A stretch of 64,000 nucleotides of DNA from an uncultured Eubacteriales bacterium. GTDB taxonomy: Bacteria; Bacillota; Clostridia; Saccharofermentanales; UBA5734. Positions 28,577 through 51,765 of this stretch are shown in pieces (the stretch's first letter is position 1; every line of letters starts with the position of its first letter). Both the position numbers and the translations under genes were made by a program. The notes below the pieces were generated by a model. The model had not been told where the DNA came from, did no database searches, and saw only the letters and a program-made list of their open reading frames with translations. The DNA lies in NCBI GenBank assembly GCA_903835065.1, contig CAILLO010000004.1, positions 1 through 64,000 of the forward strand. Direction: 5' to 3'.

Positions 28577-29211
28577 CGTCCCGCGGGGCGGCGGTCGCCC
28601 TGGCCGCGGCCCTGTTCCTCCTTGCCCTGGTGCCGGCCTGCGCGCCCCGCCTCGCCTCCGCCCTCCTGTCGCCCACGGTCACGGTCGGCCGGCCGGAGGA
28701 TCTCCGGCTCTTCGTGACGGCCGAAGAAGCCGCGCACGACTTCGGCCTCCGCTACAACGGGCTCTCGGTCCGCGACCGCAAGGAATACGCGGCCGTGCTC
28801 TTTCGCGTCTCCCGCGTCCGCTACGCCACCACCTGGAACAGCTTCGCGCCCTCCATCCGCCCGGAGGTCGAACTCTACGGTTACGCCTATTCCGTGCCGG
28901 TCATCGGCGCGGAGGACAGTTCGGTGCCCGACCTGTTCGGCGCCCGCGGAACGGTCGTCGGATTCCTGCATACGCACGGCGCGTACAGCGAGGAGCAGGG
29001 CTCGGGCAACGACGACTTCTCCACGGGCCTCTTCCACGACACCTGGTGGGCCGACCTCTTCGACCTTCCGTTCTACCTCGCGACGCCCGACGGACGGCTT
29101 CGCGTGTACCTGCCCGACATGACCGGACCCGCGGTCGTGACGCTGGCCGACGACCTGCCCTTCGACCCGATGCACCCGTCGCGGATCGTGTACGGCGGAG
29201 GAGACGCCTAG
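28537..29211 (+). CDS. secreted DUF4329-like (JAMM-fold) protein
   Basis: 224-residue protein with an N-terminal signal/anchor segment (about residues 15-40, ending ACAPRLASA). The core GTVVGFLHTHGAYS (His145-Thr-His147) followed by FSTG and PFYLATPDGRLRVYLP matches the HxH...S...D plan of DUF4329, a JAMM-like metallo-isopeptidase/deamidase family often seen in toxin or self-processing contexts. An insertion lies between the HxH and the downstream Asp region. The 40-bp overlap with the membrane protein gene suggests co-function. Enzymatic activity is inferred only from the motif. Confidence 0.65.
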   Translation: MRRAARQDPVALLTSRGAAVALAAALFLLALVPACAPRLASALLSPTVTVGRPEDLRLFVTAEEAAHDFGLRYNGLSVRDRKEYAAVLFRVSRVRYATTWNSFAPSIRPEVELYGYAYSVPVIGAEDSSVPDLFGARGTVVGFLHTHGAYSEEQGSGNDDFSTGLFHDTWWADLFDLPFYLATPDGRLRVYLPDMTGPAVVTLADDLPFDPMHPSRIVYGGGDA

Positions 29212-29254
29212 ACCGCCCGGACCCGACCGGAGCGCCGCCGGTTCCCGGACGAAG

Positions 29255-29293
29255 CGAAGAGGACCGCCTCCCCAGGGAAGGCGGTCCTCTTCG
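29255..29293. terminator. 15-bp perfect bidirectional hairpin
   Basis: Arms cgaagaggaccgcct (29255-29269) and aggcggtcctcttcg (29279-29293) with a 9-base loop lie between two convergent genes (stops at 29211 and 29329). It probably terminates both. Confidence 0.8.
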
Positions 29294-29328
29294 GTTGCGC
29301 GGCCCGGGGGCCGCGGGAATCCGCAGAC

Positions 29329-29874
29329 CTACTTGAAGTAGCGGTCCAGCAGGCCCTTGAAGGCCTTGCCGTGACGGGCCTCGTCCTTGCACATCTCGTG
29401 CACGGTGTCGTGGATCGCGTCGTAGTTCAACTGCTTCGCGAGCGTCGCGAGTTCCTTCTTGCCGGCGGTCGCGCCGTACTCGGCCTCGACGCGCGCCTCG
29501 AGGTTCTTCTTCGTGTCGGCCCAGACGACCTCGCCCAGCAACTCGGCGAACTTGGAGGCGTGCTCGGCTTCTTCGAACGCGATGCGCTTGTAGGCTTCGG
29601 CCACTTCCGGGTACCCTTCGCGGTCGGCCTGGCGGGACATCGCAAGATACATGCCGACTTCGGTGCATTCCCCGGTGAAGTTCATCCGGAGACCTTCGAC
29701 GACCTTGGCGTCCACGCCCTGCGCGACGCCGATGCGGTGCTCGTCGGCCCAGACCATCGCCTCGGCCTTGACCTCGACGAACGCCTCCGCGGGAGCTCCG
29801 CACTGGGGGCATTTCGACGGGGCCGCGTCGCCGGTGACGATATTTCCGCAGACGGTGCATCTGAACTTCTTCAT
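29329..29874 (-). CDS. rubrerythrin, N-terminal rubredoxin (reverse type)
   Basis: 181-residue non-heme iron peroxidase. The rubredoxin-like knuckles come first (Cys6, Cys9, Cys22, Cys25), followed by a four-helix ferritin-like di-iron domain with the ligand motifs [17 protein letters not shown] and DEARHGKAF. This order is opposite to classical rubrerythrin and matches the reverse rubrerythrins of clostridia that reduce peroxide and oxygen. Strong AAGGAGG site before ATG 29874. It supports an anaerobic host. The gene stands alone and faces away from the orphan RNA locus. Confidence 0.92.
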
Positions 29875-30155
29875 GAAAATCCTCCTTGTGCAAATCGGCC
29901 TTCCGGCCCCATCCGACCGCCTCATGGCGTATTATCTAGACCTTACCAGAGGGGAGGGGCCCGGATGGTAACCGATGTGACGTGCTCTGATCCAGAGCGT
30001 CCATCTTCCGGAGGCTCCTCCGAAACCGAACGAAAACACCCGCCTGGAATCCTGCAAGGATGCGGGGTTTCTTCCGGAACCGCGTGGAATGGCGCCTCCG
30101 TTCGTTCGGTTATTGTGCGGATTGACCAAATGGTAAAATAATTACCGGATGCCTA
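29875..30155. other. intergenic region, no gene recognised
   Basis: Upstream region of rubrerythrin and of the orphan RNA promoter. I see only small inverted repeats (for example atcct/aggat near 30050, and ggtaa/ttacc at 30132-30146) and a GATAAT hexamer on the minus strand at 29931-29936 that could belong to the rubrerythrin promoter. No open frame here has a start signal. Confidence 0.5.
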
Positions 30156-30183
30156 TTGACAGAATCACCAAGTCTGTTATACT
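30156..30183 (+). promoter_or_regulatory. strong sigma-A promoter of the orphan RNA
   Basis: Consensus TTGACA (30156-30161), 16-bp spacer, TATACT (30178-30183). It is the only perfect -35 hexamer I found paired with a good -10 in the window. Predicted start is near 30190. Confidence 0.85.
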
Positions 30184-30189
30184 GAAGAC

Positions 30190-30469
30190 AAGCTCCAGGG
30201 AATTCCGTGAGGTACCGGCACCTGGCAGTACGTCGCCACTCGAAAGAGTGGAATGCGGGTAGCGGCCGACGGGGGATAATAATCCACACGGGTCGCGAGC
30301 CAGACAACTGGATGACCGATCGACCAGGGTCCTGCGGACGGAAAGCTTGCTTTCCGGACACGGGGGTCGCGGGAGACGGAGTTCAGGGACCGAGGCTGAA
30401 TGCTCGCAGAGCAAAGGACGGCTGCAAAGGATCGGGAGTCTCAAAAGGGTTCGCTGGAGCCCTTTTTTT
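30190..30469 (+). ncRNA. orphan structured RNA of about 280 nt, class unknown
   Basis: Discrete transcription unit between a consensus promoter and an intrinsic terminator, with no credible reading frame and a convergent gene downstream, so it is not a leader for anything. Visible helices: ccagg/cctgg (30195-30199 with 30221-30225); ccactc/gagtgg closed by a GAAA tetraloop (30236-30251); ggat/atcc (30274-30285); ccag/ctgg inside a ggtc/gacc helix (about 30291-30317); and a 7-bp hairpin cggaaag/ctttccg (30339-30356). I could not match it to RNase P, tmRNA, SRP, 6S, T-box or the common riboswitches by their signature motifs. Comparison with raiA and other large clostridial RNAs is the obvious test. 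Confidence 0.75.
30444..30469 (+). terminator. intrinsic terminator of the orphan RNA
   Basis: Stem aaagggttc (30444-30452) with gagcccttt (30457-30465), 4-base loop, followed by a run of seven T (30463-30469). Confidence 0.9.
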
Positions 30470-30537
30470 GTGCTTTCCGGAATCCGGCGCCTGCGCGCGG
30501 GCACCCGGGAATCGGCCTGCGGGAGCCCGTCGCCCGG

Positions 30538-31086
30538 CTAGGGGGCGGTCGGGCGCTCGACCTCCGAGATGTCGGGGAGGTTGCGGCCGTGCTCGCCGAT
30601 GTCCATCCCGTACCCGATCAGGCGCCGGGTCGAGACCTCGAACCCCTGGTAGGCGATGGGCACGTTGATCATCAGCTGCGACGGGTTCACGAGCAGCGAG
30701 CAGACCTGCACGCTCGCCGGCCTGCGGGTCCCGAGGGTCTGAACGAGGTATGCGGTCGTGAGTCCGGTGCGGACGATGTCCTCGACCAGCAGCACGTGCC
30801 GGCCCGCGATGTCGATGTCGAGGTCCTTCAGGATGCGGACCGCGCCGCTCGCGGGCTCGGAGGGCGAGAATCCGCCGATGGCGATGAAATCGAGCCGGAT
30901 GGGGATCCGGATCGCGCGGGTCAGGTCGGCGAAGAAGTACAGCGAGCCCTTGAGCACGCAGACGAGCACCAGGTCCTTCCCCTCGAAGTCGGCCTCGATC
31001 GCTCGGGCGATTCCGGCCACGCGGGCGGCGATCGCGTCGGCGGGGAAGACGGTGCGGCCGGGCGCGGCGTCCTGCATGCGGTTCAT
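30538..31086 (-). CDS. hpt: hypoxanthine phosphoribosyltransferase
   Basis: 182-residue purine salvage enzyme converting hypoxanthine or guanine plus PRPP to IMP or GMP. It contains VLKGSLYFFADL, the PRPP-binding loop VLLVEDIVRTGLT, and the C-terminal VPIAYQGFEV base-binding region. ATG 31086 overlaps the stop of the upstream kinase-like gene by four bases (ATGA), so the two form a translationally coupled operon. Length and motif order are normal. In many Firmicutes hpt lies beside tilS and ftsH; here it has a different partner. Confidence 0.9.
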   Translation of the reverse strand: MNRMQDAAPGRTVFPADAIAARVAGIARAIEADFEGKDLVLVCVLKGSLYFFADLTRAIRIPIRLDFIAIGGFSPSEPASGAVRILKDLDIDIAGRHVLLVEDIVRTGLTTAYLVQTLGTRRPASVQVCSLLVNPSQLMINVPIAYQGFEVSTRRLIGYGMDIGEHGRNLPDISEVERPTAP

Positions 31087-32057
31087 TCTCCTTCCGCGTC
31101 GCGGAACCTCTCCATGAGGCCCCGGAAGTCCTTGCGGTACACGATGCGCACGTCGATGCCGGGGTAGAGCTCCCGCACTCGCTTCAGCTTCCCGTTCTTC
31201 TCGGTGACGTGTCGCTGGTCCATCGTGGTGAGCTCGAGGTAGGTGCCGAATCTCGTCAGGTGGAAGTCCGGCCGGAAGGCCTGGACGACGTTGCCCGCGG
31301 CGTCCCACTCCGTCGGGAACGTGCGCGGCTCGTAGGTCCACTCGATGCCGTACAGGTCGAGGATCCGGGCGAACTCGGCCTCGGAGGGGTGCTTGAAGGG
31401 CGAGGGGGTTCCGAGCCCGTCGACGGGACCCAGACCGCTCGTATCGGCCTGCCGTCTCGCGACGAGGGCGAGCACGGTCTCGACGGCGTCCTCCACCGAC
31501 AGCGAGGTCGTGTTGAGCGTGAGGTGGTAGAGGGCGGGATCCGACAGCTCCCCGCCGAAGACGGTCGAGATGTAGCGGCGCCGCTTCCGGTCGGACTCGA
31601 CGAGCATCCGTGCCGCGTCCTCGGGCGAGACCCCGTACTGCTCCCGGATCCGTTCGATGCGCGCGGGTATCGAGGCGACGACGCGCACGTGGAGGACGTC
31701 GCGGTCGTCGGAGAAGAGGGCCTGGGAACCGAAGCCGACGAGCACGGCCGGATGCTGCGCGAGGTGCGCGCGCAGGCCCTGCTCGATGCGCTCGATGAAG
31801 GGGACGCCGGCAGGGGAGAGGGCGAGGTATTGCCGGGAGCTGTCCCGGAGGAGGTGGCGGTCGGCGGGCGTCGCGTCGTCGCCGAGGAAGCGGTCGATCG
31901 CGTCGCCGCGGGAAACCAGGTCCCATCCGAGACGGACGGAGAGGGCGGCGGCGATCTCGTCGCCGAGCGATCCCATCTGCCGCGACAGGGTCAGAACCGA
32001 CACTTCGGCCTCCTTGGTGGTGGCCGGACGGAGCAAAACATCCTGCGCCCCTTCCAT
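31083..32057 (-). CDS. cytidylate-kinase-like domain fused to a PD-(D/E)XK-like domain
   Basis: 324-residue protein. ATG 32057 follows GGAAGGA; a longer frame exists but lacks signals. The N-terminal ~200 residues fit the cytidylate-kinase-like family (LTLSRQMGSLGDEIA, then VLVGFGSQALF and multiple Arg motifs such as SDRKRRRYIS). The C-terminal ~110 residues contain RPDFHLTRFGTYLELTT and a Lys-rich EKNGKLKRV, an arrangement resembling PD-(D/E)XK nuclease folds (D...E-x-T...K). It is coupled by a 4-base overlap to hpt. A role in nucleotide sensing or nucleic-acid processing is speculative; the fusion boundary is clear from the motif change. Confidence 0.7.
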   Translation of the reverse strand: MEGAQDVLLRPATTKEAEVSVLTLSRQMGSLGDEIAAALSVRLGWDLVSRGDAIDRFLGDDATPADRHLLRDSSRQYLALSPAGVPFIERIEQGLRAHLAQHPAVLVGFGSQALFSDDRDVLHVRVVASIPARIERIREQYGVSPEDAARMLVESDRKRRRYISTVFGGELSDPALYHLTLNTTSLSVEDAVETVLALVARRQADTSGLGPVDGLGTPSPFKHPSEAEFARILDLYGIEWTYEPRTFPTEWDAAGNVVQAFRPDFHLTRFGTYLELTTMDQRHVTEKNGKLKRVRELYPGIDVRIVYRKDFRGLMERFRDAEGE

Positions 32058-33469: not shown

Positions 33470-33559
33470 TGGCGGAGAGAAAGGGATTCGAACCCTTGGA
33501 CCACTCACATGGTCACTCGCTTTCGAGGCGAGCGCGATCGACCACTCTGCCATCTCTCC
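33470..33559 (-). tRNA. tRNA-Ser (anticodon CGA)
   Basis: 90-nt class II tRNA on the minus strand. Acceptor arms ggagaga/tctctcc pair perfectly, the anticodon loop reads ctCGAaa (decodes UCG), a long variable arm is present, the T-loop is ttcgaat, and 3' GCCA is encoded. All parts are readable directly in the sequence. Confidence 0.95.
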
Positions 33560-33661
33560 GGAGGGAATGGTATCACCCGGACGAAACCTTTGTCAATTTC
33601 AATCCTCGTAACGCCGAGCACCCCCGCGCGGGGCGCTTCGGGGCTACACTGGAACCATGGA

Positions 33662-51543: not shown

Positions 51544-51580
51544 GAAAAAGAGGACGACAAGAATGCCTTGTCGTCCCCTC
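51544..51580 (-). terminator. riboswitch-controlled terminator of the gcv operon
   Basis: Hairpin gacgacaag/cttgtcgtc (51553-51561 with 51567-51575), extended by flanking G-C pairs, followed on the minus strand by CTTTTTC. It lies between the second glycine aptamer and gcvT. Confidence 0.88.
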
Positions 51581-51587
51581 TGTTCCG

Positions 51588-51765
51588 TGACCTGAGAGAT
51601 TCGGCGCACGCGCGCCTTGCTCCTTCGGTGCCCGTCCGGGCTTTTCAGAGTGCGGTCCGGATGCGGTTCCCTTTGCCTGAAAGCTTCCCCGGCAGGCCGA
51701 CAGACCCGTACCGGCTTCCCCCTTCGGCGGCCGCCCGTTCCCGGTCGGCGCTCTCCCGCATCTTT
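51588..51765 (-). promoter_or_regulatory. tandem glycine riboswitch
   Basis: Two consecutive glycine aptamers on the minus strand. Aptamer 1 (about 51765-51676) shows GCGGGAGAGCG, CCGCCGAAGGGGGAAGC and CTTTCAGGC. Aptamer 2 (about 51665-51588) shows CACTCTGAAAAGCC, CACCGAAGGAGCAAGGC and TCTCTCAGGTCAC. This is the classic pair that binds glycine and antiterminates transcription of gcv genes. The downstream hairpin with T-run completes the switch. Confidence 0.93.

Follow-up and report, generated by a model that had tools for sequence, protein, structure and literature searches.

The locus studied here raises two questions: whether a stretch of about 280 nt with a consensus promoter encodes a structured RNA and, if so, what that RNA is for. 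The window, by which we mean the whole 64,000-nt stretch of DNA that was analysed, is contig C4 in a genome of 2.5 Mb that is assembled as 82 contigs, from an uncultured member of the order Saccharofermentanales in the class Clostridia (hereafter the order and the class). An initial annotation, made from the letters alone, had described an orphan RNA with its own promoter and terminator at this site, had read it as an RNA that acts in trans or within a ribonucleoprotein and that might belong to a large clostridial class such as raiA or to a new one, and had proposed a comparison with all Rfam models and an analysis of covariation as checks. We place the structured RNA gene at 30190-30470 on the plus strand, with a predicted transcript of ~281 nt, on the basis of its fold z-score, its relatives, covariation and the lack of an Rfam match.

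The promoter that had been claimed, TTGACA-16-TATACT, is present at 30156-30183 (+). It matches the consensus at 11/12 positions and has TG before the -10 element; the motif search found one such site, compared with 0.1 expected from shuffling. It is the best of three sites with at least 10/12 matches in the whole window, in line with the claim that it is the strongest promoter there. Since the -10 element sits 7 or 8 nt before GCUCCAG in 62 of 72 relatives, the RNA should begin with P1, the helix described below. The ~280-nt folded stretch was likewise borne out, as 30190-30471 has a folding energy of -125.7 kcal/mol (z = -4.97) that none of 200 shuffles equalled. At the other end, a pattern search found an intrinsic-terminator-like hairpin (30443-30466) which, with its seven T, spans 30443-30470 (+). 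This pattern is not a rare one (three sites found versus 1.8 expected in 29000-31500), and the "textbook terminator" of the initial annotation survives as a hairpin and T-run but not as a terminator only, the right arm being also the 3′ strand of P1. A tRNA gene at 33473-33559 (-; 53.2 bits) has a second promoter-like site (10/12) on its strand, beginning at 33596.

The annotation had further stated that the RNA has no reading frame with a start signal and that, the next gene being convergent, it is not a leader. No conserved frame was seen in 72 copies (longest closed ORF: median, 41.5 aa; maximum, 95 aa), and the next gene is hpt, encoding hypoxanthine phosphoribosyltransferase (HPRT; TIGR01203, 158.7 bits, cut-off 150), on the minus strand at 30538-31086. 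Since the RNA neither serves as a leader nor contains a conserved frame, we take it to act as RNA, and we infer from the sequence that it is produced from its own sigma-A-type promoter. The start of hpt is overlapped by 4 nt by kin (31083-32057, -), which encodes a Cytidylate_kin2 domain (PF13189) and a PD-(D/E)XK-like C-terminal domain and which we propose, from its linkage, as the partner of the RNA. On the other side of the RNA, and divergent from it, lies a rubrerythrin-like gene (29332-29874, -), as in the sister species.

A cmscan of the whole window against Rfam 15 (4227 families, which include models of OLE, ROOL and GOLLD) returned nothing at the gathering score in the RNA stretch; at E values up to 10, three chance-level matches fell on it, the best (16.1 bits) at the terminator end. 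No match covering the RNA rose above chance under lenient limits in 24 relatives' loci either, and OLE, ROOL and GOLLD were set aside accordingly for the window copy and these loci. RNase P RNA (RF00010) and 6S RNA (RF00013), whose signatures the annotation had also failed to see, gave no model match, and the genome has its true genes for both elsewhere, above cut-off, at G000:C1:98583-98928 and G000:C2:26410-26611, respectively. The raiA model (RF03072; cut-off 101.3 bits) did not match the window, nor the RNA stretch at E up to 10. The model itself works, matching 43 of 245 class genomes, yet it matched 0/12 genomes of the order and none of the nine order members within the 245-genome set. 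The conserved blocks of raiA, read by eye in eight copies, are also absent from the consensus of this RNA. Of the two identities that had been suggested, raiA is thus excluded and a new class is supported, by covariation without an Rfam match. The class is uncatalogued in Rfam, and we call it new; neither this RNA nor one associated with kin-hpt was described in the open-access papers that we searched. The window also contains a glycine riboswitch aptamer (51570-51658, -; 51.6 bits).

A blastn search of 58 related genomes recovered the whole RNA from the sister species, at 81% identity, and from most others the ends only, 5′-GGCUCCAGGGAAUACC and GGGUUCGCUGGAGCC-3′. Of 188 order genomes, 73 contain the 3′-end pattern (at most one mismatch) and 74 the 5′-end pattern, with 0 and 5 matches, respectively, to the reversed patterns. 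These order members carry labels such as "Fastidiosipila sp." and several of the type "Clostridiales" or "Clostridiaceae" (metagenome assemblies). When both ends were paired, we obtained 72 copies with the promoter and nine more, giving 81 end-to-end copies of about 250-650 nt. An exact 23-mer from the variable part had no match in the genome contigs; this part is not conserved. The terminator pattern was found in 42 stretches of the genome contigs, 10 with the RNA start upstream, and in none of the viral contigs; as most of the remaining stretches, read by eye, are presumably threonyl-tRNA synthetase coding sequence, the pattern by itself is no evidence of the RNA. In two genomes (L005, L067) the RNA is present as a tandem pair. 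At a further locus of the L066/L068 type, in G041 (L266; C104:7915-9055), a start motif with promoter and an end motif lie ~1.14 kb apart on the same strand; located ahead of a convergent kin, it may possibly hold a 1.1-kb member.

The conserved ends pair with one another. The 5′ strand of P1 (AGCUCCAGGGAAUUCC, 30191-30206; alignment and covariation test) is the extreme 5′ end of the RNA, and its 3′ strand (GGGUUCGCUGGAGCC, 30447-30461; covariation test and energy comparison) overlaps the terminator hairpin, all helix strands here and below being on the plus strand. In P1, AGCUCCAG pairs with CUGGAGCU and, across a G.G mismatch, GAAU pairs with GUUC; both-side changes occur at 5 of 14 pairs once relatives from outside the order are included. 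In the window copy the 3′ strand of P1 doubles as the right arm of that hairpin, so that only one of the two structures can form at a time; in 71 of the 72 copies, P1 is favoured over the local 3′ hairpin by 3 kcal/mol or more. P1b joins 30226-30234 to 30417-30424 (helices 2 and 3 of the covariation test; the same pairing is given by RNAalifold in long members), with 54.9% pairing in its weaker, outer part and 84.7% in the stronger one. P2 is the hairpin CCACUC-GAAA-GAGUGG (30236-30251; strands 30236-30241 and 30246-30251; covariation test), P3 pairs 30255-30259 with 30403-30407 (81.1% paired; covariation test and RNAalifold on long members), and P4 (30262-30267/30291-30296) encloses a hairpin, P4b (30273-30277/30282-30286), the two spanning 30262-30296 in the covariation test. 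Both-side changes are found at 3 of 5 pairs of P2, 5 of 6 of P4 and 4 of 5 of P4b. Between P4 and the 3′ strand of P3 lies a variable domain (30297-30402), which in our alignments varies from genus to genus and in other families has an extra 200-300 nt.

The helices listed in the initial annotation met with different fates. The first, ccactc/gagtgg, is genuine and corresponds to the conserved P2. The cggaaag/ctttccg helix is present in the window copy but not conserved, since that region differs between genera, and ccagg/cctgg is unsupported: the 5′ ccag pairs instead, in P1, with ctgg inside the supposed terminator.

Covariation was measured over a core of 42 pairs in an alignment of 18 short members that had been made with MAFFT and without structure (A1). 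In this core, 85.4% of cells are paired (shuffled mean, 77.1; slid controls, 31.5-43.4) and the covariation score is 0.300 (shuffled, 0.165; slid, 0.076-0.101). Both-side changes affect 22 pairs (shuffled, 15.2; slid, 12-16) and 79 cells (shuffled, 31.3; slid, 22-31), and none of 500 shuffles reached the observed score, percentage or both-side counts. The outcome of the proposed covariation check was therefore positive, with some 85% of cells paired versus 31-43% in slid controls. RNAalifold on 17 members of ~600 nt, all from one genus and none in A1, recovered P1, P1b, P2, P3, P4 and P4b in the same order. A second alignment, A5, adds five relatives that do not belong to the order; its score is 0.298, compared with at most 0.135 in controls, and P2 is paired in 96.7% of its cells. 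P3 is misaligned in A5 and paired in just 40% of cells; read by eye, which is not a statistical result, it can be seen in two of the relatives as GAUAU/AUAUC and AAGAU/GUCUU. The six helices covary, and the core is preserved as structure, with sequence conserved mainly at the ends. Covariation settles how the core folds.

A simple pattern search had found the RNA in 4 of 391 class genomes, all in the order, but the idea that it is confined to the order was rejected when a covariance model built from the 18 members of A1 (R1) matched other families. Run over the 391 class genomes, R1 gave 10 matches at E ≤0.01: two in the order, six strong and full-length ones outside it (G199, G285, G341, G354, G393, and G549; four families; E 9e-22 to 9e-6), corresponding to 6 of ~375 genomes outside the order, and two weak ones. 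The weak matches (G384 and G463) were dropped, as they cover P1 ends alone over ~50 nt with E about 0.002. No match was obtained on control loci (four raiA, one 6S and one RNase P), and the outside members have no Rfam match above cut-off. They carry coupled changes in P1, such as CACUAG/CUAGUG and CUCUAG/CUAGAG. In all, relatives of the RNA were found in five other families of Clostridia besides the order. R1 is insensitive to long members, having found 2 of 16 order genomes though at least eight of the other 14 carry the RNA, and having missed L011, L063, L065, and L067; absence by R1 is therefore weak evidence.

The RNA keeps the company of kin and hpt in more than one arrangement. Neighbours were scored by tblastn in 87 copies, strict hpt motif counts having undercounted them. 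In 50 of the 81 order copies the RNA runs towards hpt, with hpt and then kin downstream on the opposite strand; the other 31 have neither gene in the flank examined, which is shorter than 300 nt downstream in five. Outside the order, one of six copies (L198) is arranged as in the order, four (L199-L202) are divergent and upstream of kin-hpt, and the last (L203) adjoins the start of a kin gene that is cut by the contig end, with its remainder on another contig. Thus, the RNA outside the order mostly runs away from kin: the gene order differs and the company is kept. These arrangements dispose of a riboswitch or leader, as hpt is convergent and linked copies are convergent or divergent, never co-directional upstream. 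They also dispose of a type III toxin-antitoxin layout, the RNA and kin being on opposite strands in 56 linked copies. In the f44 member (L203), an SAICAR synthetase gene (purC, purine metabolism; 700-1485, -) converges on the RNA.

Co-occurrence was examined from the side of the protein as well. The C-terminal domain of kin, searched for regardless of the RNA in 382 class genomes, is present in 17. Outside the order it occurs in 7 of ~367 genomes, which include all six with strong RNA matches, and in the seventh (G338) the RNA adjoins kin (model R2, E 5e-10). The 6/6 co-occurrence has a Fisher probability of 2e-12, taking both samples as the same genomes and leaving kinship uncorrected; three of the six genomes belong to one genus. 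For the order we chose 80 genomes (47 from three families and 33 from a fourth, the latter partly by pattern status), and kin was found in 55. Scored by both ends, the RNA and kin are both present in 46 genomes, the RNA only in three (G011, G030, and G140), kin only in nine and neither in 22, the RNA having been sought at kin in many of them; by the blind patterns alone, the counts are 29, 3, 26, and 22. Both RNA ends were seen in 25 of 40 kin neighbourhoods or related stretches in the order, and seven genomes among the 15 stretches lacking them have the RNA elsewhere. In many genomes that lack the patterns, the RNA adjoins kin and its P1 carries the coupled change CCAAGG/GUUGG. The pairing of RNA and kin within the order is strong, though imperfect.

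The N-terminal part of kin (residues 21-184) matches Cytidylate_kin2 with 98.9 bits, and its structure model (pLDDT 77) matches the putative kinases 3fdi and 3hdt. For the C-terminal domain, one of three kin proteins matched PF05367 at E 1e-3, below cut-off, and the sole PDB sequence matches were weak ones to endonuclease I chains (E 0.12 and 0.15). Its model (pLDDT 80.8) gave best Foldseek rows that are mostly PD-(D/E)XK nucleases, none at E ≤0.001. A (D/E)XK motif is expected to carry a catalytic Lys; in all six domains aligned the motif reads PDF...E-x-T, with Thr at the expected Lys position, and no catalytic Lys was found in them. PADLOC returned nothing for the window's kin and, for one relative, a sub-threshold PD-(D/E)XK similarity, with no defence assignment. 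On a plasmid of Thermomicrobium roseum (NC_011961.1; L325 3944-4945), from another phylum, the C-terminal domain precedes HPRT in a single fusion protein, and the plasmid has no match to the RNA model; the domain also occurs in 34 viral contigs, none of which matches R2. Because the HPRT fusion and the viral contigs occur without the RNA, the bond between domain and HPRT is wider than the RNA. Six genomes have a kin frame with one in-frame stop (G057, G015, G027, G032, G037, and G082); in four of them, all of one genus, the stop is TAA.

We propose that the RNA most likely acts in trans, supplying the RNA component of a ribonucleoprotein with kin and HPRT, a reading to which we give a probability of about 0.45. 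It is the best reading because a covarying, closed and junction-rich core is accompanied by one co-inherited protein that has a junction-nuclease-like fold in which the motif is altered. The long end-to-end helix P1 closes the RNA on itself, leaving a conserved junction core (P1b, P2, P3, P4) plus the variable domain. In such a particle, the nuclease-fold domain of kin would hold the core, and its nucleotide-kinase-like domain would, along with the HPRT encoded next to it, link the particle to the supply of nucleotides. Genes may keep company without working together, and we infer the binding of kin to the RNA, the part of HPRT and the particle's action from the association described above. 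Of the original reading as a trans-acting or ribonucleoprotein RNA, the structured class without an Rfam match is supported, and the ccagg/cctgg and terminator-only details are lost.

The main rival, somewhat unlikely in our estimate, is a free-standing housekeeping or regulatory RNA, similar to raiA/ModT, for which the kin-hpt neighbourhood would be inherited gene order only. The strong promoter, the long-range closed fold and the presence across the order would all suit such an RNA, as would the genomes that keep it without kin, and since raiA is missing from the order members searched (0/9 and 0/12, compared with 43/245 in the class), it could fill a raiA-like role. That complementarity is weak, however, because raiA is also missing from most other class genomes, and two arrangements around the same gene pair together with 6/6 co-occurrence outside the order exceed what inheritance would easily leave. 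Improbable, by comparison, is a regulator of the neighbours, acting through overlapping or antisense transcription or by binding HPRT or kin to control nucleotide salvage. In the window, 78 nt separate the end of the RNA from the hpt stop, in other families the RNA lies near hpt or kin, and HPRT is distantly similar to PyrR models (E 3e-4, far below cut-offs); PyrR, a phosphoribosyltransferase relative, binds RNA. But the RNA is never a leader in the copies read, being convergent or divergent, antisense control needs no elaborate covarying core, and 31 of 81 copies are elsewhere. We consider it very improbable that the RNA is an inhibitor of a nuclease toxin in a non-classical toxin-antitoxin or defence pair: the PD-(D/E)XK-like domain of the partner and its patchy distribution outside the order (7 of ~367) would fit, but the RNA is not co-transcribed with kin, PADLOC is blank for the window's kin, Thr replaces Lys in 6/6 domains, and the near-universal vertical presence seen in parts of the order is more in keeping with a core function. 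A diverged 6S, RNase P or raiA RNA, which size and promoter might suggest, is hardly credible, given above-cut-off 6S and RNase P genes elsewhere in the genome and no above-chance Rfam match in the window copy or 24 relatives' loci.

If the kin/HPRT ribonucleoprotein is real, it would be a previously undescribed nucleotide-metabolism enzyme system with an RNA subunit. In its widest form, which we offer tentatively and would not call probable, the proposal is of a Clostridia-wide ribonucleoprotein whose RNA of 250-650 nt (perhaps to 1.1 kb) would be partnered by a fusion of a nucleotide-kinase-like domain and a catalytically altered PD-(D/E)XK nuclease fold, encoded with HPRT, as such an enzyme system. 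We know of no precedent for an RNA that belongs to a purine-salvage gene cluster. Few new classes of large, deeply conserved structured RNA turn up, and a candidate protein accompanies only a minority of them. In this case, a model can be used to find members throughout Clostridia and genome-wide co-occurrence singles out one gene, so that an orphan RNA becomes a laboratory question: whether kin binds it, and how the particle acts on nucleotides or nucleic acids.

Among known systems, the smtA motif ("Soda Lake RNA") is described as longer than 350 nt, beside purH and found only in Thioalkalivibrio (PMC11109978); to judge by this description, it resembles the present class as a large clade-restricted RNA beside a nucleotide-metabolism gene. 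6S RNA is likewise a long, closed and rod-like RNA from a strong promoter, but the genome has its 6S gene at another locus and the topology seen here is that of a multi-helix junction. raiA (ModT), presented as a stable-RNA-like gene of Clostridia (PMC11706538), shares with our RNA a sigma-A-type promoter of its own, a length of 200+ nt, several helices and a non-leader position; the RNA described here differs in having no match to the raiA model, other conserved sequence, other neighbours and far greater variation in length. OLE, ROOL and GOLLD are, according to PMC12286853, large and highly structured, of largely unknown function and in some cases with protein partners. The present RNA is similarly large and highly structured but, in contrast to them, is chromosomal and lies beside kin-hpt, with no tRNA island or phage setting seen.
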